From positions 1-45,529 of the forward strand of contig NZ_FOTS01000042.1 of assembly GCF_900114615.1 (NCBI RefSeq): a stretch of DNA of 45,529 nucleotides. Direction: 5' to 3'. Under the pieces are notes generated by a model that saw only the letters and a program-made list of their open reading frames with translations, was not told the DNA's origin and searched no databases. The stretch is from Pelosinus propionicus DSM 13327. Its GTDB lineage: Bacteria > Bacillota > Negativicutes > DSM-13327. The translations under genes were made by a program, and so were the position numbers. Of the stretch, positions 25,587-41,115 are shown piece after piece. Positions within the stretch are counted from its first letter, which is position 1. Every line of letters begins with the position of its first letter.

Positions 25587-26288
25587 TTACCTTAGTCGAA
25601 AGGAAACTGGCAATGATGTATAGCATGAGACTGTTTTGCCACTATCGCGATCTTTCGCAGGTATAAATCTCCATTTTGCAACTGCAGCTACGGCCGCATC
25701 ATCTAAGGAGGAATGCCCAGTTGATTTGCTTACAGAAATTTCTCCGGGACGGCCATTTGCTAGAATTTGTACTCTTAGCTCGGCAGTGCCTTCCAAGCCA
25801 GCCTGTCGGGCCTCTGCCGGGTAAGATGGATCTACTCTTGATAAGATACCTGGTGCCGCGATACCGCCGCGTGAACCGCCGCCACTTACCGCAGCGGGCG
25901 CTGCAGAACTACTGGAACTGCTAGCTTCACTGGAGGAAGATGAGGCGGAGGAGCTTGGGGCTTCCGCTTCTGTCATGGTCAAATCACTGGTTGTAACAAC
26001 AGCCTCTGAGTTGACAACAGGAGTACTTGTTTTTATTTGTTCTAGTGGCGTTGTTTGCGTGGGAATTGGTTTGGGTACATCAGGGAAATGTTGAGGATCA
26101 GGTAAAGAGGGACTATTGCCAGCCCGATCTGCCGGGTCACTCATTAAATCCATTTCCAGAATGACCTCTTCTTGTATTGGCAATTTAGCTGTAAATCCTG
26201 AAGCGATATAACCTGCTGTCACTAATAGGATCATATGAAGAAAAAAGGATACAGCCATGGCTTTACGCCAATGAAATGCATAGGACAT
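25587..26288 (-). CDS. tonB: TonB energy-transducing protein
   Basis: 233 residues. An N-terminal inner-membrane anchor (about 9-30) is followed by a periplasmic spacer rich in proline (about 60-90) and then serine (about 108-130), in place of the usual long Pro-Lys repeat. The C-terminal TonB domain covers about 148-233: SRVDPSYPAEARQAGLEGT, LDDAAVAAVAKWRFIPA. It would carry proton-motive energy from ExbB-ExbD to the outer-membrane receptors at 36019 and 38929. The poly-serine spacer is a peculiarity. It is last in the operon, 7 bases after exbD. Confidence 0.92.
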   Translation of the reverse strand: MSYAFHWRKAMAVSFFLHMILLVTAGYIASGFTAKLPIQEEVILEMDLMSDPADRAGNSPSLPDPQHFPDVPKPIPTQTTPLEQIKTSTPVVNSEAVVTTSDLTMTEAEAPSSSASSSSSEASSSSSSAAPAAVSGGGSRGGIAAPGILSRVDPSYPAEARQAGLEGTAELRVQILANGRPGEISVSKSTGHSSLDDAAVAAVAKWRFIPAKDRDSGKTVSCYTSLPVSFRLR

Positions 26289-26295
26289 AGCCGAT

Positions 26296-26703
26296 TTACC
26301 TCGCTTTCTCTGCCGCTACCGATACTCGGTGAGCTCCGGCTAACTTAAGTTCATCCAAAACAGCGATTACTTGACCGTATGGTACTTGTTTATCGCCTCT
26401 CAAGACAAAAATATTATCCGGCTGTTTCCCCAATTCTAGACTGACTCGCTTAGCCAGTAAGTTCAGCGGTATTTCTTCCTGATTAAACATTACACTGCCA
26501 TTATCCATAACTGTAATGTTTATACTGCTAGGTTTATCCTGCTGAACAGATGCTGCCTGAGGCAGATTTACAGGAATGGTGTGCTGCTCTACCATATACA
26601 AAGTGCTCATCATAAAAAATACTAATAAAAAAAACATAATATCAATTAGAGGGATAACCATCAATTGTGGCTGATTCGCTACTCGTAAACTACGCAATCT
26701 CAT
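26296..26703 (-). CDS. exbD: ExbD biopolymer transport protein
   Basis: 135 residues. One membrane segment (about 15-36) includes the conserved proton-path aspartate in LIDIMFFLLVFF, D21 in my count. The periplasmic domain follows (INITVMDNGSVMFNQEEIP, VLRGDKQVPYGQVIAVLDEL). It forms the TonB motor with ExbB, whose gene it overlaps by 14 bases. Confidence 0.92.
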   Translation of the reverse strand: MRLRSLRVANQPQLMVIPLIDIMFFLLVFFMMSTLYMVEQHTIPVNLPQAASVQQDKPSSINITVMDNGSVMFNQEEIPLNLLAKRVSLELGKQPDNIFVLRGDKQVPYGQVIAVLDELKLAGAHRVSVAAEKAR

Positions 26704-27337
26704 GTGTTTCTCTCCGTGCTGCTTTTTTTAATGGCATATAGCTGATAATTAATGCAGCTGTTTGCTCAATATCACTGATCATACGATTAACTCTTCGAGA
26801 AAAGTAACTGTGAGAGACAAGAGCCAAAGTTGCAACACTAAGACCGGTTGCAGTCGCAACAAGTGCTTCTCCAACACCGCCTGTAATAGCCATAGGCTGT
26901 CCGGATTGTACATTAAATACGCTAAACGAATCGATCATGCCAATAACAGTTCCTAATAATCCAAGCAGTGGGGCTAGCGTAACAATTGTGCTCAAATCAT
27001 CAAGGCGTTCTCGCAATCGATCTGCTGCCAAAGTGGCACTGCTTTCTAAAGCATTTTCTACTTGACCATTTCTTTGAGAAGCCAATAGACCAGCTAAGGC
27101 TACTTGTGAAAGAGTATGGGGTTTCTGCTCACATAATTGAATGGCATCATTTAAACGCTGCTTTTCCAATAAAGGCTGTAATGCTTGATGAAAAGCTTGT
27201 GTGTTGGCAAATGCATTTTTGTAATATAAAACGCGCTCAACGGCAATTGCTACCACGGATAGAGAGCAAATTGCTAAAAGATACATAACAGGTCCACCCT
27301 TGTGAAACAAGTCAATTGAATGATTTAAAAATTCCAT
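26690..27337 (-). CDS. exbB: ExbB / TolQ-type proton channel protein
   Basis: 215 residues with three membrane segments: about 13-33, 118-140 and 155-178. The conserved MotA/TolQ/ExbB core reads LAPLLGLLGTVIGMIDSF and ITGGVGEALVATATGLSVA. It forms the pentameric channel around ExbD. The order tolC-like, exbB, exbD, tonB on one strand under a Fur-like box ties it to iron or heme uptake. Confidence 0.93.
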   Translation of the reverse strand: MEFLNHSIDLFHKGGPVMYLLAICSLSVVAIAVERVLYYKNAFANTQAFHQALQPLLEKQRLNDAIQLCEQKPHTLSQVALAGLLASQRNGQVENALESSATLAADRLRERLDDLSTIVTLAPLLGLLGTVIGMIDSFSVFNVQSGQPMAITGGVGEALVATATGLSVATLALVSHSYFSRRVNRMISDIEQTAALIISYMPLKKAARRETHEIA

Positions 27338-27423
27338 AGTTATATTAGCTCCTTATAAATAATTTTGATAAGTTTTTTACATTTAAAATTTATTGCAATA
27401 GTAAAGCAGTGGTGTAAGACTGC

Positions 27424-28674
27424 TTACCATGTAACAGGAAGCATACCAGTAACTCGCAGCAGATGTACCCGGCATTTGTGGTAATCATAGAGAGTATTGA
27501 TATGATTTGTTTTAGCTTCCGTTAGTGTGCTATAGGAATTTAGCAAATCTTCGTTGGTGGTTTTGCCAGATTGAAATTCCAAAACAGCCACTTCATAGTC
27601 CTCTGTAGATTTAGCGAGGAATTGAGCAGCTTCTTTCATTACAATATCAGCTTGTTGAAAGTAATAAAAGGCTTCTCTGGTTTCTTGAGTAATCTTCTCA
27701 ATTTTCTGTTCTAAGTATTCTTGTGATCTCGCTTCTTCTAAACTGGCCTGGCGGACTTGTATGTTAGACCGGCCAGCATCAAACAAATTGGTGGATACAC
27801 TAACAGTGGTGTACCAATACTGCTCTGGCAGCCAGAGGTCGCTGGCAACAAAAAGTAAATAAATATTAGGACGCTTATTGCTGGCTGCGACTTTTATACC
27901 CCATTGAGCCACGGCTTGTTCCTTACGGGCTTGCTTTAAATCATTACGCTGCTGTAGAGCAGTCTGAATAGCAAGATCTAATGTTTCAGGGGTAGACTGT
28001 CCAGGTATTTCCGACAAAATCAATTCCTGATCTGGCTGAATCTGCAAGAGACTTGTTAGCTGGCTTGTGACCAGTTGGCGCTCATTATGTATGCGAATGT
28101 AATTTTGCCGGGCTTGCGCCAATTTGCTTTCGATTCTCAGCACATTTTTCTTAGAATCTGCCTTGGCAGGATCTTGAAGTTTAGCTTGTGCTAAATGCTG
28201 ATTTAGGTTTTCTACAATTTGGTTTGCTAGATCCTCACGACTTTTAGCTTGCAATACATTATAATAAGCCAGCATCGTATTGGCAGTTACCTGCTGTTTG
28301 GTGTGTTCCAGATTATCAGCGGCTCCCTCATAGAACTCTTGTGACTGCATCACCAAGCTTTTAGTCCGGCCTCCATCAGACAAGGGAAGTTTAGCCGTCA
28401 AATAGTTGCCATACTCCGGTTTGGGTGATTTTTCAATTTGAGTATGCTCATGTGTCATACTGACGGTAGGCCAATAAGTAGCCTTATTTCTCTTAATTTC
28501 CAAGGAGGCTTTGGCCGCATCTAGCTCCGCTATTTTTACTGCATGACTGCGGGTTAGCGCCAAATGTATGCTCTCAGGAAGGGTGAGGGCAAGAGGAGCA
28601 GCATAGCCCCAATTTGGTGCGCCCCAGCAAAGAAGAGTGATGCCGGCACAAAAAAAAGTCCGACGAAAGTTCAT
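27424..28674 (-). CDS. TolC family outer-membrane channel
   Basis: 416 residues. A signal peptide (1-25, ending WGYAA) precedes two repeats of the outer membrane efflux protein domain with long coiled-coil helices, for example LAYYNVLQAKSREDLANQIV and TREAFYYFQQADIVMKEAA. It forms the exit duct for secretion or drug efflux. Here it is first gene of the exbB-exbD-tonB operon without a periplasmic adaptor or pump gene, so its partner is elsewhere. Siderophore or porphyrin export is possible (inference). AAGGAG precedes the ATG. Confidence 0.9.
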   Translation of the reverse strand: MNFRRTFFCAGITLLCWGAPNWGYAAPLALTLPESIHLALTRSHAVKIAELDAAKASLEIKRNKATYWPTVSMTHEHTQIEKSPKPEYGNYLTAKLPLSDGGRTKSLVMQSQEFYEGAADNLEHTKQQVTANTMLAYYNVLQAKSREDLANQIVENLNQHLAQAKLQDPAKADSKKNVLRIESKLAQARQNYIRIHNERQLVTSQLTSLLQIQPDQELILSEIPGQSTPETLDLAIQTALQQRNDLKQARKEQAVAQWGIKVAASNKRPNIYLLFVASDLWLPEQYWYTTVSVSTNLFDAGRSNIQVRQASLEEARSQEYLEQKIEKITQETREAFYYFQQADIVMKEAAQFLAKSTEDYEVAVLEFQSGKTTNEDLLNSYSTLTEAKTNHINTLYDYHKCRVHLLRVTGMLPVTW

Positions 28675-29314: not shown

Positions 29315-30256
29315 TTATTGATAAAATAAATTGGACAGATAGTCAATGGCTTCATCTACCCGGCTGCCGGGATTAACAGCAAACAGGCAGTATGGCAGCT
29401 GGTAGACCCGATTTTCTTGTACGGCTTTTAGCTTTCTCCAGCTAGGGTGAAGTGCCAATTCATTGCGAATTTGATCACCGACCGTAGTGTCGTAGCTATG
29501 AGTAATTAGCAAGATCAAGTCGGGGCTGGTCTGAAGCGCAATGTTGAGGCTAAGGGGGGCATATCCCATGGCATTGCCGCCTGCGTCTTGAACAATATTT
29601 TTTGCATTAAGGCGATGGAGCAGGTCACCAATAAAACTGTTTGGCAGTGCCATATGAAAACTTTCAGCAGATCCCCAGACAACGAGAACCTTTGGTGAGG
29701 GCTTATTCTTGCTTTTTGCTTGAACCTGCTGCAATTTGCTGTCCAAACGATGAATCACCTGAGAAGCTTGCTGAGAATGATCTGTCAATTCACCATAAAA
29801 GCGCAGGGTTTGGCTAATCTGCTGGTAATTATTTAATCTTTGAAGGTATACTAAGATCCCTGCTTTTTCTAGTGAGGTGAGGATTGGCTGACGCAAATGA
29901 ATATCAGTAGTTAATACTAAGTCGGGTTTCAAAGCTATAATCTGATCAATGTTGGGAGCTGGTGTTTCGCCTATAGATGGTACGTCTTTAATTCGCTCCA
30001 TCAGATCCGACGATAGTGCCATAGTACTGGGGCGGCCGATTAATTCTCCGCCAACGGCATAATATAAATCAACATTAGAAGCATTGAGAGCAATAAGCCG
30101 CAGCGCTCGCCCCTTTTTAATTGTTTGTATTAAACTGCATTTTGGACACTGAATTTCAATATACTTTACCTGTCCTTTGAATAGTAGTCTGTTGCATTTT
30201 GAGCAGCGACATTCATTTGAACTAGTGTTGTTTATCATCGTATGACATGCTTTCAT
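29315..30256 (-). CDS. Com-type zinc ribbon fused to a heme-type substrate-binding domain
   Basis: 313 residues in two parts. Residues about 14-46 are a zinc ribbon, CRCSKCNRLLFKG with C16/C18/C21 and QCPKC with C37/C40, matching Com-family proteins. The phage Mu Com protein is an RNA-binding translational activator. Residues about 51-313 are an ABC substrate-binding domain (ALRLIALNASNVDLYYAVGG, IALKPDLVL) closely similar to the exported protein at 31057. There is no signal peptide, so it should stay in the cytoplasm. GGAGG six bases upstream fixes the start. It is divergent from the stand-alone Com-like gene, with Fur-like boxes between. I infer a ligand-sensing regulator; a non-functional hybrid is the alternative. 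Confidence 0.85.
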   Translation of the reverse strand: MKACHTMINNTSSNECRCSKCNRLLFKGQVKYIEIQCPKCSLIQTIKKGRALRLIALNASNVDLYYAVGGELIGRPSTMALSSDLMERIKDVPSIGETPAPNIDQIIALKPDLVLTTDIHLRQPILTSLEKAGILVYLQRLNNYQQISQTLRFYGELTDHSQQASQVIHRLDSKLQQVQAKSKNKPSPKVLVVWGSAESFHMALPNSFIGDLLHRLNAKNIVQDAGGNAMGYAPLSLNIALQTSPDLILLITHSYDTTVGDQIRNELALHPSWRKLKAVQENRVYQLPYCLFAVNPGSRVDEAIDYLSNLFYQ

Positions 30257-30291
30257 GATATTCCTCCATTAACAGGAATTTAAGATATAAA

Positions 30292-30343
30292 TAAAAAACT
30301 CCGTGCGAAATTATGATTTCATCACGGAGCTCTAGGCCCTCTA
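30292..30343 (-). promoter_or_regulatory. Conserved leader element, copy 1 (before the Com-PBP fusion)
   Basis: Minus strand: TAGAGGGCCTAGAGCTCC, then hairpin CTCCGTG / CACGGAG (30299-30305 / 30323-30329) and TTTTTTATTTAT. It looks like a terminator or attenuator with an extra conserved 5' block shared with copies 2 and 3. It lies 36 bases before the fusion gene. Confidence 0.7.
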
Positions 30344-30351
30344 GTATATAG

Positions 30352-30384
30352 TTCTTATAATGATAACTATTATCATTATAAGAA
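30352..30384. promoter_or_regulatory. Perfect palindromic Fur-like box
   Basis: Arms TTCTTATAATGATAA and TTATCATTATAAGAA are 15-bp perfect complements around CTA. It contains the Fur-type core ATAATGATA..TATCATTAT and lies upstream of the minus-strand fusion gene. Confidence 0.78.
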
Positions 30385-30462
30385 TGAGATGCAATCTTGT
30401 CAAGAAGAACTCATGCAAGAGTAAGGGGCAGATGACTATCGATACCATTTTATAAAATTAAA

Positions 30463-30491
30463 TTGACTTTGATAATGATTATCAATATACT
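30463..30491 (+). promoter_or_regulatory. Sigma-A promoter with Fur box filling the spacer (1)
   Basis: TTGACT (30463-30468), 17-base spacer TTGATAATGATTATCAA, TATACT (30486-30491). The spacer is a perfect palindrome of Fur type, so repressor and RNA polymerase would compete. It drives the stand-alone Com-like gene. Confidence 0.85.
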
Positions 30492-30590
30492 AAGTAGTAA
30501 AAGTTAATCCTTCCTTATTTTACTATGGGGAAAAAATCATGCGCCACTATGGCAGTTGATGTTTAAGATCGATAATTTGGAGTGATGCAC

Positions 30591-30779
30591 ATGGAAATAA
30601 GGGATAAAGAATTGCGGCATGCAAGACCAAAATGGCCGGAAGTACGCTGTATTCAATGTAATCGTTTATTATTTCGTGGAATTGTTGAAGATATGGAGAT
30701 TAAATGCTCGCGGTGCGGCACAATTCAGCATATCGGTGAGTGCAAACAAGAAGAAAAAATGAACGTTTGTAATCGATAA
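30591..30779 (+). CDS. Com-family zinc ribbon protein
   Basis: 62 residues. The zinc ribbon has C20, C23, C39 and C42 (RCIQCNRLLFRG, IKCSRCGTIQHI), nearly the same as the N-terminus of the fusion protein on the other strand. Com of phage Mu binds mRNA and opens a translation-blocking stem. Relatives in bacterial chromosomes are mostly unstudied. I chose ATG 30591 because GGAG lies 8 bases upstream; ATG 30585 is too close to it. It sits between two near-identical Fur promoters, upstream of the heme importer genes. Confidence 0.8.
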   Translation: MEIRDKELRHARPKWPEVRCIQCNRLLFRGIVEDMEIKCSRCGTIQHIGECKQEEKMNVCNR

Positions 30780-30799: not shown

Positions 30800-30828
30800 T
30801 TGACTTTGAGAATTGTTATCAATATACT
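30800..30828 (+). promoter_or_regulatory. Sigma-A promoter with Fur box filling the spacer (2)
   Basis: TTGACT (30800-30805), spacer TTGAGAATTGTTATCAA, TATACT (30823-30828). About 30 bases are near-identical to the promoter at 30463, implying a duplicated regulatory unit. It drives the heme importer operon at 31057. Confidence 0.85.
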
Positions 30829-30905
30829 AAGGATCAATACTAGTATTTGTAAGCCGATGCTGGCTTTGCGCTAAATTGAATAGAATGGTTAGCAAAATAA
30901 CCGAT

Positions 30906-30955
30906 TAGAGAGCCTAGAGCTCCGTGCCAATAGTATTATGCACGGAGTTTTTATT
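30906..30955 (+). promoter_or_regulatory. Conserved leader element, copy 2 (before the heme importer)
   Basis: TAGAGAGCCTAGAGCTCC, hairpin CTCCGTGC / GCACGGAG (30920-30927 / 30940-30947), then TTTTTATTTATTTT. Two small hairpins precede it in the same leader (AAGCC/GGCTT and GGTTA/TAACC). About 100 bases before the binding-protein gene. Confidence 0.75.
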
Positions 30956-31056
30956 TATTTTAAGAAAATTGCAGCTACGCGCAGCTGCTTTATTACTGGC
31001 TTAAGTAGTCTTGATGTAAGAGCCGTACGTGTGAAAATAAGAAGTGAGGTGTAAAT

Positions 31057-32019
31057 ATGAATAGAGTAACAAGTATACTAATCGTTTTATTATTGGCTGT
31101 CAGTAGTATTTTCTTGTTTAGAGGGCAGTCAGAACCGGTAGTAAATCAGTCAAATCGCTATAGTGTAACTGACAGTGCCGGCAGACAAGTGGAAATCCCA
31201 CGGCAGCCTCAACGGGTGATTGTGTTAAATGCTTCGAATCTGGAATTATTCTATGCAGTCGGTGGAAAGGTAATTGGACGTCCTACTACAGAGGCTTTGC
31301 CACAGGCTGTTAAGGATGCTGTTCAGCAAGTGCCGACTGTTGGCATTACACCTAACCCTAACATTGAACAGATAATAGGACTAAAACCTGACTTGATTTT
31401 AGGAGTTAACATGCCGTTTCATCATAATTTGATTCCAGTGTTAGACAAAGCGGGCGTTCCCATTTTGCTGCAATCCCTTGAAAACTATCAACAAATTATT
31501 GATACGCTGCATTTTTATGGCGAATTAACTGGAAAACCGGATCAGGCAGATGCGCAAATCAAGCAGATTCAGTCCTGCTACGAAGAGATAATGAGTCAGA
31601 ATAAAGATCGTATGGCTCCTAAAGTGGTAATTGTATGGGGATCATCGGAGAGCTTCCATATGGCAACATCCCGCAGCTTTAGCGGCGACTTGCTGAAACG
31701 CCTAGGGGCAGTTAATATTGCTGACCAGGGAGATGACGGTGGTGGGCAAATGGGCTATGTACCATTAAGCATGGAATATGTTGCGAAGCAAAATCCGGAT
31801 ATGATTTTTTTGATTACCCATAGTTCTGATGAGAAAATTAATGAGAAGTTTCGCAATGAATTGGCTAATCATCCTGCATGGCAGGGACTAAAAGCTGTCA
31901 AATCCAATCAAGTTCATCAGTTGCCTTATCGTTTATTTGCTGTCAACCCTGGTACACAGGTAGGAGAGGCCTTGACCGTTTTAGCTGGTTTTTTATATCC
32001 GGAGGTGGCAAAGCAATGA
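31057..32019 (+). CDS. Heme-type ABC transporter substrate-binding protein
   Basis: 320 residues with a hydrophobic N-terminal export signal (about 5-22), no lipobox cysteine visible. The FecB/HmuT-type binding domain starts RYSVTDSAGRQVEIPRQPQR and contains LNASNLELFYAVGG and IIGLKPDLIL. It would carry heme or a related tetrapyrrole or ferric chelate in the periplasm to the permease. First gene of importer operon (31057-35844); its stop overlaps the permease start as ATGA. Heme as ligand comes from the HutW, ChaN and receptor neighbours. Confidence 0.88.
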   Translation: MNRVTSILIVLLLAVSSIFLFRGQSEPVVNQSNRYSVTDSAGRQVEIPRQPQRVIVLNASNLELFYAVGGKVIGRPTTEALPQAVKDAVQQVPTVGITPNPNIEQIIGLKPDLILGVNMPFHHNLIPVLDKAGVPILLQSLENYQQIIDTLHFYGELTGKPDQADAQIKQIQSCYEEIMSQNKDRMAPKVVIVWGSSESFHMATSRSFSGDLLKRLGAVNIADQGDDGGGQMGYVPLSMEYVAKQNPDMIFLITHSSDEKINEKFRNELANHPAWQGLKAVKSNQVHQLPYRLFAVNPGTQVGEALTVLAGFLYPEVAKQ

Positions 32020-33020
32020 GAGAAATTGTAATTGATCCTCGCGGGGCTTGGCGAACGGGAATCAGTATAACCGGACTAGTTGCACTGGTGGCGGCCTTAT
32101 TTTGGGGGATCAGAGTGGGAGCTGTACCCTTTAGTACTTATGATATATGGAATGTTTTTATTGCTCCGTCCGCCAATGAAGCCTATCAAATTATCTATAA
32201 TATCAGGGTGCCCAGGGTATTGGTTGGTGCGTTAACCGGGATCAATTTAGCCTTAGCCGGCTGCATCCTGCAAGGGGTGTTGCGCAATCCTTTAGCCGAT
32301 CCTGGAATTATTGGAGTCTCAGCGGGAGCTGGTCTGGCAGCTATGTCCGTAATGATTTTGTGGCCTGGGCCTATGGCATTAGTACCGGCCGCTGCTTTCC
32401 TTGGAGCTCTGCTGGCTGCTGGAATTGTATTTTTATTGTCCTGGGATCGGGGAATTCAGCCTCTGAGACTGATCTTGGCTGGTGTAGCTCTGGCTGCCTT
32501 CTTTGGCGGCGGCATGAGTGCTCTTATGGTCTTTCATTCCGATAAAGTACAGGGGACGGTCAACTGGATGGCTGGAGGATTTCAGGGGCGCAGCTGGAAT
32601 CATGTGCAGATGATTCTGCCTTACAGCTTGATCGGAGTTTTAGGGGCTATGCTTTCTTACCGTCAGTTAAATGCATTGCAGCTGGGTGATGAAGTTGCCA
32701 AAGGTTTGGGGATAAGAGTGGAAAAAGCACGTTTTTTCCTGGTTATTTTGGCAGCCTTGCTGGCAGCTTCGGCAGTCAGTGTGGCGGGTCTCCTAGGTTT
32801 TGTTGGACTTATTATCCCCCATATTGCCCGCATGCTGGTCGGTTCGGATTTTGAATATCTGATGCCCTGTGCAGCCGTACTGGGAGCTACGATTGTAGTG
32901 GCCGCAGACACCGTCTCACGTACTATATTCAGTCCGGTGGAAGTACCAGTAGGAATTTTTATGGCCTTTTTAGGAGCTCCGTTCTTTCTTTATTTACTGC
33001 GAAAGGGGATGCAGCGATGA
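32016..33020 (+). CDS. FecCD-type ABC permease, heme importer
   Basis: 334 residues, about ten membrane segments. Typical FecCD/BtuC features: IRVPRVLVGALTGINLALAG, GVLRNPLADPGIIGVSAGA, and the ATPase-coupling part GLLGFVGLIIPHIAR. ATG 32016 overlaps the previous stop by ATGA; a longer upstream frame lies inside the binding-protein gene and is not used. The inner-membrane channel of the importer. Confidence 0.94.
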   Translation: MREIVIDPRGAWRTGISITGLVALVAALFWGIRVGAVPFSTYDIWNVFIAPSANEAYQIIYNIRVPRVLVGALTGINLALAGCILQGVLRNPLADPGIIGVSAGAGLAAMSVMILWPGPMALVPAAAFLGALLAAGIVFLLSWDRGIQPLRLILAGVALAAFFGGGMSALMVFHSDKVQGTVNWMAGGFQGRSWNHVQMILPYSLIGVLGAMLSYRQLNALQLGDEVAKGLGIRVEKARFFLVILAALLAASAVSVAGLLGFVGLIIPHIARMLVGSDFEYLMPCAAVLGATIVVAADTVSRTIFSPVEVPVGIFMAFLGAPFFLYLLRKGMQR

Positions 33021-33844
33021 ATCATACCATTAAAGCCCAATCCATTACACTTGGCTATGGCGGTAAAGTGATCATTCCTAAAATGGATATTGTAATCGAC
33101 AAACCGGAAATCATCTCCATTATTGGACCCAACGGGTCAGGAAAATCCACCTTATTGAAAGCATTAAGCCGTTTATTGGTTCCTTTGGCTGGCTGCGCTT
33201 TACTGGATGGAAAGGATATTTATCAATTACAGCCAGGGCAAGTAGCTAAAATCATGGCAATCTTGCCTCAGACCGTACATGCGCCGGGAGACATGACAGT
33301 TTGTGATTTGGTGGCTTACGGGCGTATGCCTTATAAAAAAATCTTTGAGAAATTGGCTAGTGATGATCAAGAGTGTATAACAGCAGCAATGGAAGCCACT
33401 GGTATTCAGCAAATGCTGCACCGACGTCTAGACAGCTTGTCAGGAGGGGAAAGACAGCGGGCTTGGCTGGCTATGGCCTTGGCCCAGGAGCCTCGTATCC
33501 TTTTATTAGATGAACCGACAACCTATCTGGATATTCATCACCAGCTGGAATTAATGAAGCTGGTTCGCAAACTGCATCAGGATATGCAGATTACTATTAT
33601 TATGGTTCTGCATGATTTAAACCATGCAGCGCGCTTTAGCCACCGTGTGATTGCGGTCAAAGATGGTCTGTTATTTGCGGATGGGCCAGTGGAAGAAGTA
33701 TTTACGGTAGAAAACTTACGGGCTTTATACGGAGTCGAAACAACGATTATGACCATTGACCAAGGAGGAAGTTCACATCTTGTCTGTTTTCCTCACGACA
33801 GCTGCCTGAAAAAGGAGGATGGCTGTGCACCGGCTGTACGATGA
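33017..33844 (+). CDS. ABC transporter ATP-binding protein, heme importer
   Basis: 275 residues. Walker A GPNGSGKST (37-45), signature LSGGERQ (141-147), Walker B ILLLDEP (161-167), switch histidine in VLHDLNHA. Typical FecE/BtuD/HmuV family. It starts inside the permease stop (ATGA). It powers import with two copies per complex. Confidence 0.95.
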   Translation: MNHTIKAQSITLGYGGKVIIPKMDIVIDKPEIISIIGPNGSGKSTLLKALSRLLVPLAGCALLDGKDIYQLQPGQVAKIMAILPQTVHAPGDMTVCDLVAYGRMPYKKIFEKLASDDQECITAAMEATGIQQMLHRRLDSLSGGERQRAWLAMALAQEPRILLLDEPTTYLDIHHQLELMKLVRKLHQDMQITIIMVLHDLNHAARFSHRVIAVKDGLLFADGPVEEVFTVENLRALYGVETTIMTIDQGGSSHLVCFPHDSCLKKEDGCAPAVR

Positions 33845-33892
33845 ATAATAGCAGAGTGGTAAAATTAGATTTTTTAAATAGGAGGTATTTCA

Positions 33893-34441
33893 ATGCAAAC
33901 GCTAATTGTTTATTCCAGTCTTACGGGCAATACCAAGAAGGTGGCGGAGGCGATCTATAAAGTCTTTGGTGAAAAGGCTGACTTGTTACCAGTTGAGATG
34001 GCACCGGCACCGACAGACTATGATTTTATAATAGTCGGCTTTTGGGTTGACAAAGGAACAGCTGATAAAAAGACCCAGGAGTATCTCAAAATCATTCAGG
34101 ATAAACCTGTTGCTTTATTTGCTACATTAGGAGCCTATCCTGATTCAGAACATGCTGCCAGCAGTCTCAAAAATGCAGCTGCATTTCTGAATAGTAGCAA
34201 TCAATTGGCGGGAACTTTTATATGTCAGGGGAAAATAGATCCGAAGCTAATTGAACAATTTAGAAACATGCCGGGAAATCATCCTCATGCTGCTACCCCA
34301 GAAAGGATGGAACGCTATAAGAAAGCTGCCAGCCATCCTGATGCCAGCGATCTAAATGCAGCTCAGGCTGTTTTTACCGATATAAAAAATAACTTCGATC
34401 AAATTGCGAGGCAAGGGAAAGGTAAGGTGACGACCTCTTGA
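33893..34441 (+). CDS. Flavodoxin family protein
   Basis: 182 residues. The FMN phosphate loop is SSLTGNTKKVA at 8-18. Further on FIIVGFWVDKGTADKKTQEY and FATLGAYPDS line the flavin site. It lies between the heme importer and the HutW-like enzyme and overlaps the latter by four bases, so it probably supplies electrons to that radical SAM enzyme, as flavodoxins do for ChuW (known of the pathway; inferred here). It is longer than a minimal flavodoxin and has a charged C-terminal tail. GGAGG precedes the ATG. Confidence 0.88.
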   Translation: MQTLIVYSSLTGNTKKVAEAIYKVFGEKADLLPVEMAPAPTDYDFIIVGFWVDKGTADKKTQEYLKIIQDKPVALFATLGAYPDSEHAASSLKNAAAFLNSSNQLAGTFICQGKIDPKLIEQFRNMPGNHPHAATPERMERYKKAASHPDASDLNAAQAVFTDIKNNFDQIARQGKGKVTTS

Positions 34442-35844
34442 AGGGAAGTAGATTAAAACAAATTCTGACCAACATGAGTCCAGAGCAATATGCCTTGACC
34501 GTCGGCACGGCAGCTGAAGAGTCACTGGTAGAAGCCTTTGTAAAACGCCGAGTTGTTCATGCCGGAGTTAGAGGAAAACCGATCATGCCGGGAGATTGGC
34601 AAGTGACATGGCAGTCTTTACAGGGACAAAGCCAAGAAAATGAACAACGTGTGGCATATATCCATATTCCCTTTTGCCGGCATCGTTGTCTATATTGCGG
34701 CTTTTTTCAAAACTACTCAGAAGAAGAGTCAGAAGCGGTTTACATTGATCATTTAATTAAAGAACTGCAGATGAGCAGAGATAGTCCTTATTTATCCAGT
34801 GGACCGGTTAATGCCGTATTTATCGGCGGCGGGACTCCCAGTACTCTGGCACCTCAGCAGGTTGCCAGGCTGCTTGATGCCATCCGGGACTGTTTGCCCC
34901 TAGCCAATGATTATGAATTAACGTTAGAAGGGAGGGTTAATGACTTAGTTCCATCTAAAATAGAAGCTTGGCTGGATCATGGGGTAAACCGTGTATCGAT
35001 TGGTGTGCAGTCCTTCAATCCTGAAGTACGGCGAGGGGTTGGCCGGCTGGATGATACACAGACCATTCTTAAAAGGCTGGAATTATTGACAAGTTATAAC
35101 CAGGCTGCCGTTATTATTGATTTGATTTATGGTCTGCCGAACCAGACGAATCAAATTTGGGCCAATGATATCAGCCTATTGAAAACGGCAGCCATTGATG
35201 GAATGGATTTGTATCAGTTAAACATTTTTGAAAACAGTGCCTTGCAGCAGGCGATCCATGCCGGTAAGCTGTCGCCAGCTGCTACAACGGCCCAGCAAGC
35301 TCGAATGTTTGCTGCAGCCGAAGCGGAACTGTCCGCTCCTATATTTTCTCGGCTCAGTATTTGCCATTGGAGGAAGACCAACCGTGAGAGAAGTATATAC
35401 AATACCCTAACGAAAGCAGGTCACAGTGTAATTCCCTTTGGTGCCGGTGCCGGCGGTAGTATTGGCGGTGTGGCTATGTTTTTAAATCGGGATGTCGATA
35501 ACTATATGAAAAGTGTTGAGCAAGGTCAGAAACCATTGGCTGGCATGATGATGCAGCCAGCTGACAGCGGATTGCACAATATGGTTATTGGGCAACTCGA
35601 ACGGGGTTATTTACAACTTAGTGTCTTGGCAGCCTGCTATGGACCTGCTGCTTTGGAATTAGAATCATTGCTAGAAATTTGGCAAGGACGTGGTCTTCTT
35701 GAAATTGGTCCGGCAGCTGCTCGCCTGACAGTAGCTGGTCAGTTTTGGTATATGAATATCGCCCAATCAATATTAGAATGCTTGCATGCTCTGCTAGATG
35801 GTGAACATTCAGTGGAAGTGCAGCCTATAGCGGCCCAAGGCTAA
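34438..35844 (+). CDS. hutW: HutW/ChuW-type radical SAM heme-degrading enzyme
   Basis: 468 residues. The radical SAM cluster motif CxxxCxxC is C80-RHR-C84-LY-C87 in HIPFCRHRCLYCGFF. HemW-family core follows: VFIGGGTPSTL, VNRVSIGVQSFNPEVRRGVGR, DLIYGLPNQT. The N-terminal 70-residue extension and location with heme import genes favour ChuW/HutW, which opens the porphyrin ring without oxygen, over the HemW heme chaperone. The start is TTG 34438, overlapping the flavodoxin stop (TTGA), with AAGGTG upstream. Heme degradation is by family and context, not proven. Confidence 0.83.
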   Translation: MKGSRLKQILTNMSPEQYALTVGTAAEESLVEAFVKRRVVHAGVRGKPIMPGDWQVTWQSLQGQSQENEQRVAYIHIPFCRHRCLYCGFFQNYSEEESEAVYIDHLIKELQMSRDSPYLSSGPVNAVFIGGGTPSTLAPQQVARLLDAIRDCLPLANDYELTLEGRVNDLVPSKIEAWLDHGVNRVSIGVQSFNPEVRRGVGRLDDTQTILKRLELLTSYNQAAVIIDLIYGLPNQTNQIWANDISLLKTAAIDGMDLYQLNIFENSALQQAIHAGKLSPAATTAQQARMFAAAEAELSAPIFSRLSICHWRKTNRERSIYNTLTKAGHSVIPFGAGAGGSIGGVAMFLNRDVDNYMKSVEQGQKPLAGMMMQPADSGLHNMVIGQLERGYLQLSVLAACYGPAALELESLLEIWQGRGLLEIGPAAARLTVAGQFWYMNIAQSILECLHALLDGEHSVEVQPIAAQG

Positions 35845-35858
35845 TTGCCGGGCCATTT

Positions 35859-35906
35859 TAGAGAGCCTGTGAGCTCCATGACGGTCTATTGCCGCATGGA
35901 GTTTTG
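35859..35906 (+). promoter_or_regulatory. Conserved leader element, copy 3 (before the TonB-dependent receptor)
   Basis: TAGAGAGCCTGTGAGCTCC, hairpin CTCCATG / CATGGAG (35874-35880 / 35895-35901) with an inner CGG/CCG pair, then TTTTGTTATTTT. It starts 15 bases after the hutW stop and lies 113 bases before the receptor gene, so it could limit read-through into the receptor. Confidence 0.72.
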
Positions 35907-36018
35907 TTATTTTCTGTTTCTAATCACGCAAGGTAGTGAAAGGCGTCGATTATGAACCCCAGTTAGCTCTTAGATCAAGGTATCGATTTTACTACAATAT
36001 AAGAAAGGAAGATCGTAT

Positions 36019-37962
36019 ATGAAAATAAGACAATATCGGACGAAAAGCAAAGTCGCGTTATTAAGTCTTGGTATTATGGCGGCATCGATTCTGCCAGCTT
36101 ACGCCGAGGAGGAACCTTACCAGTTTAGTGAGGTAGTGGTTACGGCCACCCGGACCAAACAGAATATAAAAGATATACCAGCTAGTGTTGAGGTTATCAC
36201 TCGGCAAGATATCGAAACCATGGGGGCTGACAGTGTAGTAGCAGCATTGAAGCTGGCCATGAATTTAAATCTTTCTGAAGCGGGAATGACAGGTAATCAG
36301 GTTAGTTTGCGTGGTATGAATACGAATCAGTCCCTAATTTTGATTGATGGTCGGCGTATGGCAGGGGAAGATACAGGATCAACCATGAATTATTACGAGT
36401 TAAACCGGATTAATATTAATAATGTGGAACGGATCGAAATCGTACGGGGGCCAGTTAGTTCTCTTTATGGATCAGATGCTTTAGGCGGCGTCATCAATAT
36501 TATTATGCGTAAATCGGAAAAACCACAGACTACCGTGGGCTTGTCGAGCGGCAGCAAGCAGCAAAACGCTTCATTCCGCTTTGACTTAGGTAAAGAAGGA
36601 AAATGGGCATGGGTAGTGGATTCACTATTTACCGAGATTAAAGAGAGGTCACGAACTGATAGTACCAATATGTATGGTCCGCGCCAGTTCTATAATATCA
36701 GTGGAACATATGATATATCGCCCGATAAGAATCTCGATGTTTTTTATGAAAGAATGAGTGAACATTTGAAATCAGGATTTACGGATGGCAGCAGAGATTA
36801 TTATACCAATGCGAGAAGTTCCTACGGCATTAATTATCGTGGTATCAGTTCACGAGGTAATTATGAATTGCGGACTTATTTTAATCAGCTGGAAAAAAAT
36901 AATGATACATTGCTTGAAAGTGGAACATATAGTGACTTTGACAGAGCAAAGTATAAAACCTGGGTAGTTGATGGAAAAAATACAGTAAAATTGGATGATG
37001 AGCATGTATTGACATTTGGTGGTGAATATCGGTCGTCTTATTATCGGGGGACCCGGCTGGAAGACAATGGCGATCACGCTTCGACGATCATTGAGCATGG
37101 AATAAGCAAACCCATATCAGAAAAAGAAATAAAATATCAGGCCGCCTATATACAAGATGAGTGGGCTGTTAATGGCAAACTTTTAATTATTCCATCCTTG
37201 CGCTATGATAACAGTAATAAATTTGGCGATGATTTTAGTCCTAAAATCGGTATGACTTATAAAATGGATAACAACTATCGTTTTAAAGCAAATTTTGGAA
37301 AAGGGTTTAAAGCACCCACTGTCAGTGAGTTATATATGAAAATGACTCATCGCCCGATACCCAACATGACTGTTATTGTTGCTGGGAATCCAGATTTAAA
37401 ACCGGAAAAATCGACTAATTATGATGTAAGTTTTGAAGGCGAAAGAGGAAATGATTTTGGAAAAGTAACCTACTTTTATAACGATGTTACCGACCTGATT
37501 GGAACAGATGATACAATGAGTTACATTCCAGGGACTGGGATGGTTTATAACTCAAAATATGTTAATATTGATAAAGCTAAGATAAGAGGCATTGAACTTG
37601 AAGCTGGAAGGCATCTGAACGATAAGTTTACTCTAAAATCCGCTTATAATTATCTGGACGCTGAAAATTCCAAAACTCATGAACGTCTGAGCAGCAGGGC
37701 AAAAAACAGGTATTCGCTGCAGCTGCATTATGATGATATTCAAAATACAGGAATCAGTGGTATTCTATGGCATGAATGGGTGCGTGATTATCGCTATGTT
37801 GAGACTGATTATAACTATAATACATTAAACTTTGTGATCAACAAAAAATGGAATGATAAGTATGACTCTTACTTTGGTATTGATAATATTCTCGATAAAA
37901 AAATCGATGCTTTGATCCTCGAAGGCCGTTTGTGGAGATTTGGCATGAGTATCACAATATGA
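36019..37962 (+). CDS. TonB-dependent outer-membrane receptor, probably for heme
   Basis: 647 residues. Signal peptide 1-29 (ILPAYA). TonB box SEVVVTAT (37-44). Plug domain about 45-165 (DIPASVEVITRQDIE, RIEIVRGPVSSLYGSDALGG). 22-strand barrel to the C-terminus, ending RLWRFGMSITI. FKAP (430-433), H444 and NPDL (457-460) resemble the FRAP-His-NPNL region of heme receptors. It would pass heme across the outer membrane with TonB energy. ATGA overlap couples it to the ChaN-like gene. Confidence 0.9.
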   Translation: MKIRQYRTKSKVALLSLGIMAASILPAYAEEEPYQFSEVVVTATRTKQNIKDIPASVEVITRQDIETMGADSVVAALKLAMNLNLSEAGMTGNQVSLRGMNTNQSLILIDGRRMAGEDTGSTMNYYELNRININNVERIEIVRGPVSSLYGSDALGGVINIIMRKSEKPQTTVGLSSGSKQQNASFRFDLGKEGKWAWVVDSLFTEIKERSRTDSTNMYGPRQFYNISGTYDISPDKNLDVFYERMSEHLKSGFTDGSRDYYTNARSSYGINYRGISSRGNYELRTYFNQLEKNNDTLLESGTYSDFDRAKYKTWVVDGKNTVKLDDEHVLTFGGEYRSSYYRGTRLEDNGDHASTIIEHGISKPISEKEIKYQAAYIQDEWAVNGKLLIIPSLRYDNSNKFGDDFSPKIGMTYKMDNNYRFKANFGKGFKAPTVSELYMKMTHRPIPNMTVIVAGNPDLKPEKSTNYDVSFEGERGNDFGKVTYFYNDVTDLIGTDDTMSYIPGTGMVYNSKYVNIDKAKIRGIELEAGRHLNDKFTLKSAYNYLDAENSKTHERLSSRAKNRYSLQLHYDDIQNTGISGILWHEWVRDYRYVETDYNYNTLNFVINKKWNDKYDSYFGIDNILDKKIDALILEGRLWRFGMSITI

Positions 37963-38928: not shown

Positions 38929-41115
38929 CTACCAGCGATGGGTGGCAGTCAGCGTTACTTTGCGCCCGTTGTCGACATAGTCATAATAGGCCCAATAATC
39001 ATTAGATGAGACGACATAGTGCTTATCAAAGACATTCGTTACATTAAGAGCATAGCGCCAGCCATTGGTGTCGTAGCGGACCATGGCGTCAGTTAAGACC
39101 GAACCGCCGAATTTGCGGGTGTTATAGTAGTTGTAGCGGGAACCGATATAACGCAGACCGCCGCCGAAGCTCCAGCCTTCTGCTGTATCACCGGGTTTGA
39201 CCGTATCCAGCCATAAAGAGGCACTATGCCGGGGGACGCCTTCGGTGTGACGGCCTACTTTAGCGGAATCGTTGTCTTTGGTGGTCTTATTGTCTAGTAA
39301 AGTATAGGCCAGAGTTAGGTTGACTCCTTTGAAGGCCTGCATATTGGCTTCCAGTTCCAGGCCTTTAGAAGCTACTTCTCCAGTTTGAATTTGAAAAAGG
39401 GTATCTACAGGGTCAGTAGTGAGGACATTTTGCTTGCGCAGGTCAAAGATCGCTGCAGTAAAGCGGGCATTCATCTTCTTTGGCTCATACTGTATACCTA
39501 GTTCATATTGTTGACCAGTAGTTGGCTTGAAAGCCTTGCCAAGTCGGTCAGATCCAGGCTGGCCCTGAAATGATTCATTATAGCTGACATAGGGCATTAC
39601 GCCATTACCGGCATCATAGACGATACCAGCGCGTCCGGTAAAGGCATTTTGGTCAGTAATAGTAGTGGTACTACCGGAAATATTTCTAAAAATATTGTCA
39701 TAGCGATCATAGCGTCCGCCCAGTACAGCGGTCCATTTTCCGCCAAATTTAAGCTGATCCTGCAGATAATAGCCATTTTGTTTAGTTTTACCGGCAGTAA
39801 TGTAGGAATAAGCCGGCGCGGTGATGGTCTGTCCGTAATTCATAGTAGATAAATCTAAGGACGGAGCCGACCCGCCTCCCCAGCGCCAGTTGTAATCGCC
39901 TTTCTGATAATCAAAGCCCAGCAAGGTGGTGTGGGTGACTGCACCGCTGGACCATTTGGCCTGAAAGTTAGTGTCGATGGAATCGGAACTGCCGTATCTG
40001 CCGGTTGCCTTAGTGGAGCGGCTGATTGTTTGGGTAGTAGAATCCAGAGAATCTGCCTTTACTCCTCGCTGAGTCATTGAGGTATGAAAATGACTGGCGG
40101 TTTGGGTCACAGACCAGATATCATTGATTTTATGTTCTAAGATATAGCCGACTTGGCTTTGATTTCGAATGGCGCGGTCAAAATCCCGCTCACCAAAATA
40201 GGTTTTGCTGGAAATACCGGAGCCGTAAAAAGAATTGCCAGGCAAATAGACTTTTTGGTAGGATTCTTCAGTAGTTCCTTTTAAATCATCTTTTTGAAAA
40301 TAGGTTAATAAGGTCAGGCTGGTGCTTTCGGTAGGTTTCCAGGTCAAGGCCGGGGCGATAAAGGAATGTTCCATGGTGCTGGAATCGGTATATAAGTCTT
40401 CTTTGGATTTCAGCGCGGTCAGACGAAACAGCAGTTTGCCATCTTCGGTGACCGGACCGCCAAGATCCAGCGCACCGCTGAACTTGTCACTGCTGCCAGC
40501 CTGCAATTGAATCTCTCGCAGCGGCTCAGTTGTAGGCCGTTTGGAAACATTGTTGATGATGCCCCCAGGGCTGCCCGCGCCGTAGAGTATTGAGGCCGGA
40601 CCTCGCAGTACTTCAACCCGCTCCAGGCTGTACATGTCAAAATTACTGCCATAGTAACTGCCTAGCCGGCTGGAGCCATTGTTATAAGCGCCGTCATAAC
40701 TAAAACCCCGGATGTTCAATCCATAAGTTTGCCCCTCTCCGGAATAAACTAAAGAAGTCACTCCTGGGGTATACCCCAGAGCTTCGGCAAAATTAGTAAC
40801 GCCGCGATGATCCATTTGCTCTCGGGTGATTACGCTGATGGACTGGGCAGTTTCGCTTAACGCGGTTTCGGTCTTCGTGCCAATCGAAGTTCGTGTGGCG
40901 ATGTATCCTTCCTACAGCCGCTCATCAGTAACTTCGATGCCTTCCAGGATAAATTCACGTTGACTGCTGTCTGCCTCTATTGCAGCCTGTTCTGGAGGTG
41001 AGACTATGTCATCCGCTGCATGAACGGCCATCGGCAAGTGCCAAAGCAGGCTGCTGCTTAGCAAGGCAGAGAGCAGACTTTTCCGAGTACGGGAGATTGT
41101 TTTCATACCATCCAT
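38929..41115 (-). pseudogene. TonB-dependent siderophore receptor interrupted by one amber codon
   Basis: The frame runs from ATG 41115 to 38929 with a single in-frame TAG at plus-strand 40912-40914. Before it: signal peptide (LLWHLPMAVHA) and TonB-box region REFILEGIEVTDERL. After it: [20 protein letters not shown], plug ([27 protein letters not shown]) and barrel to a C-terminal HRW, typical of siderophore receptors. The 3' part from ATG 40815 (628 residues) would lack signal and plug start. Without suppression no exported receptor can be made. No other lesions seen, so the mutation is recent or conditional, or a sequencing error. Confidence 0.85.
40912..40914 (-). other. In-frame TAG stop in the receptor gene
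   Basis: The codon reads TAG on the minus strand between GAGCGGCTG and GAAGGATAC. A single base change from CAG, AAG or GAG would restore the frame. It lies between the TonB box and the plug domain. Confidence 0.85.

Follow-up and report, generated by a model that had tools for sequence, protein, structure and literature searches.

A Com-type zinc ribbon fused to an IsdE-like binding domain, and a family of candidate Com-type leader RNAs at anaerobic heme-use loci

We report a protein of Pelosinus propionicus DSM 13327 in which a zinc ribbon of the Com family is joined to an IsdE-like binding domain, and an RNA element that lies in the leaders of this gene and of neighboring heme-uptake genes. 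The fusion is probably a cytoplasmic, ligand-gated RNA-binding regulator that acts as a Com antiterminator of a heme regulon; of this reading, we infer RNA binding, antitermination, the identity of the ligand and the direction of the response from sequence. The window, i.e., the whole stretch of DNA analyzed, comprises 45,529 nucleotides, and its relevant features are the following.

29315..30256, minus strand: fusion gene, Com zinc ribbon plus IsdE-like class III binding domain (313 aa)
30119..30217, minus strand: zinc-ribbon coding segment of the fusion (CxxC...CxxC)
30287..30346, minus strand: leader RNA of the fusion gene, candidate Com-type site AGAGGGCCTAGAGCTCC overlapping an intrinsic-terminator hairpin (65.1 bits)
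30352..30403, minus strand: promoter-like hexamers (12/12) with an overlapping perfect 15-bp inverted repeat, for the fusion
30463..30491, plus strand: promoter-like site with a Fur-box-like repeat, upstream of free Com
30591..30779, plus strand: free Com-type zinc-ribbon protein (62 aa; PF10122, 40.1 bits, E 2.4e-10)
30800..30828, plus strand: promoter-like site with a Fur-box-like repeat, for the importer operon
30903..30959, plus strand: leader RNA of the importer operon, candidate Com-type site AGAGAGCCTAGAGCTCC overlapping a terminator (67.3 bits)
31057..32019, plus strand: exported IsdE-like heme-type binding protein
32019..33020, plus strand: FhuB/BtuC/FecD-type ABC permease (under the cut-offs of single equivalogs)
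33017..33844, plus strand: ABC ATPase, iron/heme/B12 type (under the cut-offs of single equivalogs)
33893..34441, plus strand: flavodoxin-type protein (top NCBIfam model BilS, 136.3 of 155 bits, below cut-off)
34438..35844, plus strand: ChuW/HutW, heme anaerobic degradation radical SAM methyltransferase (TIGR04107, 500 bits, cut-off 400)
35856..35913, plus strand: leader RNA before the TonB receptor, AGAGAGCCTGTGAGCTCC overlapping a terminator (41.5 bits)
36019..37962, plus strand: TonB-dependent receptor (hemin-type best match, below cut-off)

The repeats at 30352..30403, 30463..30491 and 30800..30828 resemble the Fur box consensus. The three leaders go beyond what the first-pass annotation of this DNA, made from the sequence alone, had described.

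That annotation had proposed a ribbon at residues 14-46 joined to a substrate-binding domain, and Pfam searches bear this out. In the ORF at 29315-30256, Zn_ribbon_Com matches residues 14-46 (E 2.5e-5) with 24.1 bits, which barely exceeds the PF10122 cut-off of 22.9 bits, and Peripla_BP_2 matches residues 55-288 (E 4e-29) of an IsdE-like domain that spans approximately residues 49-313. Four Cys residues together with an above-cutoff PF10122 score were found in both the window fusion and free Com (40.1 bits), which places both in the Com zinc-ribbon family, and CxxC...CxxC is present in 20/20 fusions detected in this study. According to the same annotation, the ribbon takes the place of the signal peptide and first strand. 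In the window fusion it indeed directly adjoins the RLIALNASN strand, where the exported protein has its signal peptide and first segment; two other fusion classes retain the segment that the ribbon replaces here. Peak 15-residue hydropathy before the LNxS strand was 0.25-1.44 in the 20 fusions versus 2.25-3.15 in 18 exported relatives; by this measure, a hydrophobic export signal was seen in 18/18 relatives and in none of the 20 fusions. The predicted lack of a signal peptide thus holds, and location of the fusion in the cytoplasm is supported by sequence.

The window fusion shares 48% identity with the exported relative at 31057, and the solved relatives nearest to the fusion by sequence are Staphylococcus aureus IsdE and Listeria Lmo2184. 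Structure 2q8p was matched in a sequence search with E 1.2e-23, and a fold search with the AlphaFold model of the fusion (mean pLDDT 72.6, pTM 0.66) gave 5joq and 2q8p as top hits (target TM 0.87-0.88). Pfam, sequence and fold searches agree on a class III binding-protein fold. The fusion (150.9 bits) and the exported relative (155.9 bits) both score below the IsdE equivalog cut-off of 298.65 bits. A His aligned with His229, the heme ligand of IsdE, occurs in 20/20 fusions and 14/16 exported proteins, and the Met ligand of IsdE is absent from both the fusion and the exported protein. The ligand site implied by the first-pass annotation is therefore retained in its His position and not in its Met. 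Since this Met is not kept, heme, the likely ligand of the fusion's binding domain, is suggested mainly by the neighboring genes.

Glu72 and Glu202 of BtuF (precursor numbering) presumably dock the protein to its importer. Glu is found at both corresponding positions in 16/16 exported proteins versus 4/20 fusions (7/20 at the first position and 9/20 at the second), and 16/20 fusions lack Glu at one or both of these positions; in the window fusion they are taken by Asp and Asn. The loss of docking is a tendency rather than a rule, because 10/20 fusions have Asp or Glu at both sites. These patterns fit a binding domain that has been freed from its importer and may still hold the candidate ligand.

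When PF10122 was sought across 380 genomes of the class, 38 matched at E up to 0.01 and 25 scored above the cut-off. The architecture, i.e., a Com ribbon plus an IsdE-like domain without an export signal, is kept as 20 fusions in 15 of these genomes, in two separate clades and beside heme loci, the association that the first-pass annotation had envisaged. Nine fusions are of the window type (class A). The six class B fusions lie beside TonB, receptor, flavodoxin or HutW genes; among the five of class C, four directly precede a permease gene and one a receptor gene. The P. propionicus genome itself has a second, longer fusion of class B elsewhere (G000:C79, L014:2750-9725), in a heme locus with the order TonB receptor, TonB, class B Com fusion, flavodoxin, HutW, DUF454 and with two leaders, one ahead of the receptor and one ahead of the fusion. 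Three other genomes of the genus have the divergent fusion/free Com pair beside the same heme operon (fusion 91-93% identity). The dN/dS of the window fusion was 0.09 against two of these three, and values of 0.09-0.13 in five pairs indicate evolution under constraint. A chance ORF or assembly artefact was rejected on account of conservation and the dN/dS of 0.09. In a tree of 42 binding domains, class A stands apart from classes B and C. A single origin of the fusion was likewise rejected, as the tree demands two label changes forced by well-supported branches; two gains would account for them, as would a single gain followed by a loss.

Both ribbon forms occur in 9 of the 15 fusion-bearing genomes, as a divergent pair in 8 of the 9, and the other six have only the fused ribbon. 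Free Com was not found at E up to 0.01 in these six genomes, five of which are at least 97% complete and one 85%. The best start of the free Com gene in the window is the ATG at 30591, and no leader was found upstream of this gene itself in Pelosinus. Among the phage proteins found, those nearest to its product were phage B3 Com from Pseudomonas (45% over 66% of the protein) and similar proteins of Pseudomonas phages. A prophage remnant was considered and rejected, because no phage genes were present among the identified neighbors.

Genes 31057-35844 are very likely an anaerobic heme-use locus, as judged from HutW, which closes this run and scores well above its curated cut-off. Other genes in the window included TolC-, ExbB-, ExbD- and TonB-like genes at 25587-28674 (minus strand), which follow the fusion on its strand and have a perfect promoter-like site of their own at 29064-29035 and no leader match. 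There was also a second TonB-receptor-like gene at 38929-40815 (minus strand), 29% identical to the first and with no leader match.

Inspection of the regions upstream of the 20 fusions and of 15 free Com genes revealed a repeated element, AGAGAGCC-NA-GAGCTCCG, with a variable loop, CGGAG and a T run; its core is GAGAGCC-NN-GAGCUCC. A leader model was built from 40 copies and run on all 380 genomes under stricter filters, at the cost of some weak matches. Conservation within the pattern is partly by construction, because most of the 40 model rows were chosen by the pattern of the element. Not by construction are the upstream regions, which were first read without the pattern, the genome-wide search, and the match to the motif given in PMC6483171. 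The model had 61 matches with E below 5e-6, all in 21 genomes, and the next match had E 1.6e-5. In P. propionicus, five strong matches all fell at the two heme loci, followed by one at E 0.017. Together with one weaker match (G080, E about 1e-4, or 9e-4 in the 380-genome run), there are 62 distinct leader places.

Each leader was assigned to the first ORF within 700 nt that either had 150 or more residues or contained a ribbon. Recognized heme-uptake genes follow 61/62 leaders; BLAST identified 56 of these genes and inspection by eye 5, and the remaining leader precedes a DUF454 gene. The 56 comprise 29 fusion or exported binding-protein genes (19 + 10), 14 TonB receptors, 6 free Com, 4 ExbB and 3 TonB. 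The six assigned by eye are three TonB-like genes, one ExbB-like gene, one binding protein then receptor, and the DUF454 gene, which in its genome is on the opposite strand to HutW, at a distance of some 5.6 kb; in P. propionicus a DUF454 homologue comes after HutW. Leaders sit between a promoter-like site and the start codon of the same few genes, at a distance from the start codon that varies up to 285 nt. They precede 19/20 fusion genes; no leader was found at the class A fusion of L048 (G079:C1), where a Fur-like promoter site was seen upstream. Model matches in Com-negative genomes (best E 1.6e-5) did not contain the exact Com motif in the nine loci inspected (L092-L100). Inspection of G136 revealed a diverged leader missed by the model (L070:5036, plus strand), located before ExbB, with GAGU/ACUC for GAGC/GCUC and a long loop. 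Candidate sites are thus mapped in 22 genomes, 21 by the model and one by inspection. Rfam 15 had no match at the leaders, either in the window at the gathering threshold or in six loci at E up to 1, and a known riboswitch was rejected on this basis.

In a published selection study, RNAs selected in vitro by Mu-type Com are reported to carry the bipartite motif NGAGNNCC(N)2-3GAGNNCCNN, and Com binds them in the form of a short hairpin with a C-G pair closing the loop (PMC6483171). The leader element was defined before it was compared with this motif. The motif GAGNNCC-N2-3-GAGNNCC from that study occurs exactly in 52/62 leaders and in 0/31,000 letter shuffles. The ten inexact leaders have a spacing of 4-5 (three), one C-to-U change (four), paired C-to-U and G-to-A changes (L049) or the G080 variant (two). 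At the level of sequence, the leader qualifies as a Com-type RNA target, a GAGNNCC(N)2-3GAGNNCC hairpin.

In this hairpin GAGC pairs with GCUC, and the same GCUC is part of the 5' arm of the terminator stem. Because they share bases, the mini-hairpin and the terminator are predicted to be mutually exclusive; they have four columns in common, an overlap that in the studied class is by construction of the leader model. Mini-hairpin pairing is kept in 236/236 cells (59 distinct rows), with two-sided changes in 2 pairs, 3 cells and 2 genomes. The terminator stem pairs in 94.3% of cells and has 24 two-sided changes versus a shuffled mean of 5.3. For 61 distinct leaders the median energy is -16.3 kcal/mol for the terminator and -3.2 kcal/mol for the mini-hairpin, which is weak alone; 59/61 have at least six T in the 10 bases at and after the stem end. 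Folding was used here, as the built-in terminator scan (loop limit 8) omits the leader hairpins. The 5' leader is thus predicted to have two exclusive folds, one of them an intrinsic terminator. Since the mini-hairpin is transcribed before the terminator, a bound protein could hold it, and this order, together with the exclusive folds, is why we propose antitermination.

Among the 380 genomes, 21 had both the leader and an above-cutoff Com, 4 Com only, none the leader only, and 355 neither (Fisher p 7.6e-31); in the 113 genomes with HutW, the numbers were 21, 1, 0 and 91 (p 6.3e-22). These p-values are optimistic, because the genomes are related and the model, trained on Com-positive loci, measures co-occurrence in a one-sided manner. 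All 21 strong-leader genomes have an above-cutoff Com and the heme-degrading HutW, and the lone genome with HutW and Com and no model match is G136, the one with the diverged leader. Three genomes counted as Com only (G077, G096, G310) have Com-like matches, no HutW and no leader. In G135, which has HutW and a Com just below the cut-off and was counted among the 91, no leader was found; its locus, L037, is short. The leader genomes include nine with free and fused ribbons, six with the fused form only and six with the free form only; therefore, the leader follows the ribbon in either form.

We propose the following model. RNA polymerase would start at iron-controlled (Fur-like) promoters, and the Com ribbon would recognize the hairpin AGA-NNNN-Y(N)2-3GA-NNNN-C in the leaders of the fusion's own gene, of the binding-protein/permease/ATPase/flavodoxin/HutW operon and of the TonB-receptor gene. 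As the 3' strand of this hairpin also contributes to the 5' strand of the terminator, a ribbon holding the early hairpin would keep the terminator from forming, and transcription would enter the heme genes. The fused binding domain may read cytoplasmic heme or a breakdown product and gate the ribbon, and free Com may be an ungated version that acts on the same leaders. The first-pass annotation's heme-type binding domain and action on RNA are in keeping with the sequence data. As for the kind of action, translational activation of the Mu type is less likely than terminator control, because the Com site overlaps the terminator and can be as far as 285 nt from the start codon.

If the same protein and sites acted on translation or mRNA stability instead, the terminator-shaped hairpin would be a stable 5' end or a second layer of control. 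Such action has a precedent in Mu Com, which activates mom translation by altering the RNA fold (PMC6483171), and several Com-type hairpins near TonB-receptor starts (L125, L126, L130 and L135) have no obvious terminator. However, the site overlaps the terminator stem (by model construction), with a T-rich end in 59/61 distinct leaders, and a distance of up to 285 nt is too far for masking a ribosome site. In addition, the overlap of a Com-type site and a strong terminator is found independently at two loci of deltaproteobacteria. We regard this explanation as unlikely. A chaperone or sink that passes heme from the importer to HutW, with the ribbon as a docking part or incidental, would account for the four genomes in which the fusion gene directly precedes a permease gene (L046, L047, L051, L052) and for the half of fusions that are acidic at both docking sites; a flavodoxin-type protein is reported to traffic heme to HmuW (PMC10404700). 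It would not explain why the same leader precedes 19/20 fusion genes, nor why leaders persist in the six genomes with a fusion and no detected free Com, where something must therefore read them; we consider it very unlikely.

The fusion might also be a decoy that competes with free Com for the leaders or titrates heme, with no activating role of its own. The first-pass annotation had raised competition with free Com, and the two forms do coexist in nine genomes, eight times as a divergent pair, but the 6/15 fusion genomes without a free Com match (five of them at least 97% complete) do not allow competition as a general rule, and the decoy appears highly improbable. Finally, the leaders could be ordinary terminators or repeats with a coincidental Com match, since terminators share G+C stems and U tails and the region was searched on account of Com. 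With no match in 31,000 shuffles, strong matches confined to genomes with above-cutoff Com, and placement between a promoter-like site and the start codon of the same few genes, this is barely credible. Our preferred interpretation remains Com-mediated antitermination.

Several known systems resemble the proposed one in part. Binding-protein folds are known to gate DNA-binding domains in the cytoplasm. Btr, an AraC-type activator of iron uptake, has a cytoplasmic Peripla_BP_2 sensor fused to a nucleic-acid-binding part and binds DNA by helix-turn-helix, whereas the Com ribbon family binds RNA; the NCBIfam Btr model matches the window fusion weakly (E 0.022). Antiterminators of the BglG/LicT type are signal-responsive RNA-binding proteins that use small hairpins with conserved loops. 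They and ANTAR/EutV respond by phosphorylation, whereas the sensor proposed here is a binding-protein fold, and the protein domains of EutV and LicT are unrelated to those of the fusion. EutV is likewise signal-responsive and RNA-binding, and its small conserved-loop hairpins oppose a terminator; EutV uses two hairpins (PMC3369931), in contrast to the single hairpin with a YNNGA-type loop here. With IsdE and class III heme-binding proteins, the fusion has in common the fold, sequence and the IsdE His position, but it differs from IsdE-type importer proteins in having no hydrophobic export signal and no conservation of docking glutamates.

Phage Mu Com belongs to the same zinc-ribbon family (PF10122) as the fusion and free Com, and the leader matches the published selection motif and hairpin of Com (PMC6483171). 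Mu Com is known to activate translation and is not known as an antiterminator (PMC6483171). Here, in contrast, the ribbon is fused to a binding domain of ~260 residues or lies beside heme genes, not mom, and the expected output is transcription read-through, because the site overlaps a terminator. As 61/62 leaders precede heme-uptake genes and one DUF454, the protein is not a mom regulator, though RNA-level action like that of Com is possible. As the first-pass annotation had supposed, a precedent did not come to light: the open-licence literature searched yielded no description of the fusion, of a binding-protein fold that gates a zinc ribbon with RNA-binding activity, of a role for Com in controlling heme or iron genes, or of the leader. 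If the model is correct, the Com family would gain a chromosomal job and a defined RNA code (AGA-stem-YNNGA-stem-C), with a testable switch between two RNA folds, and this would explain how heme sensing is layered on Fur control of heme uptake in anaerobes. The putative protein-RNA pair is compact, and its candidate sites are already mapped in the 22 genomes.

A generalized hairpin, AGA-N4-Y(N2-3)GA-N4-C with a paired stem, was found 21 times in 20 loci (17 plus L037, L066 and L070) versus 1.4 expected from shuffles. Within the window it occurs three times, exactly at the three leaders. Thirteen of the 21 hairpins are no more than 250 nt away from a Com match, and some fall in the 3' part of the Com ORF; the Com-adjacent hairpins belong to Nitrospirota, Nitrospinota, Deferribacteres, Desulfobacterales, and gamma- and alphaproteobacteria. 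The hairpins of L133 and L070 belong to leaders of the studied class, and two or more look like chance. A broader scenario can be offered tentatively, at somewhat less than an even chance: a periplasmic-type binding fold, moved into the cytoplasm and joined to a Com ribbon on apparently two occasions, would constitute a new class of metabolite-gated RNA-binding regulator and provide heme- or anaerobilin-responsive antitermination. Bacteria of several phyla would then use Com ribbons as antiterminators or leader-RNA switches in iron and heme uptake, this being the general role of the family, and the phage mom regulator would be one specialized branch.

Additional loci with Com-type hairpins were inspected. 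In L125, L126, L130 and L135 (Nitrospira, Nitrospiraceae, Nitrospinae and Deferribacteraceae), Com-type genes with LLMKG ribbons occur just before TonB-receptor genes, with one or two hairpins (loop YNNGA) between Com and the receptor and no leader-model match; in L126 the hairpin is within the called receptor ORF, just ahead of a later likely start. These loci point to a broader use of Com in iron uptake. At L134:7197 (Desulfobacterales) and L131:4793 (Deltaproteobacteria), the 3' strand of a Com-type hairpin opens a very strong terminator, and the downstream genes look phage-like by eye; the former hairpin directly follows a Com gene and the latter is 1.6 kb from the Com match. The overlap of site and terminator in this unrelated setting suggests Com antitermination in prophages too. 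In L137:7092, L138:7141 and L140:7095, the hairpin is inside the 3' part of phage-type Com ORFs, and in L138 it precedes part of an ORF that looks, by eye, like a DNA methylase. Finally, at L132:2693 (plus strand), a TonB-receptor gene begins with a Com-type hairpin; the Com gene of this locus is 4 kb away and comes after a binding-protein gene.
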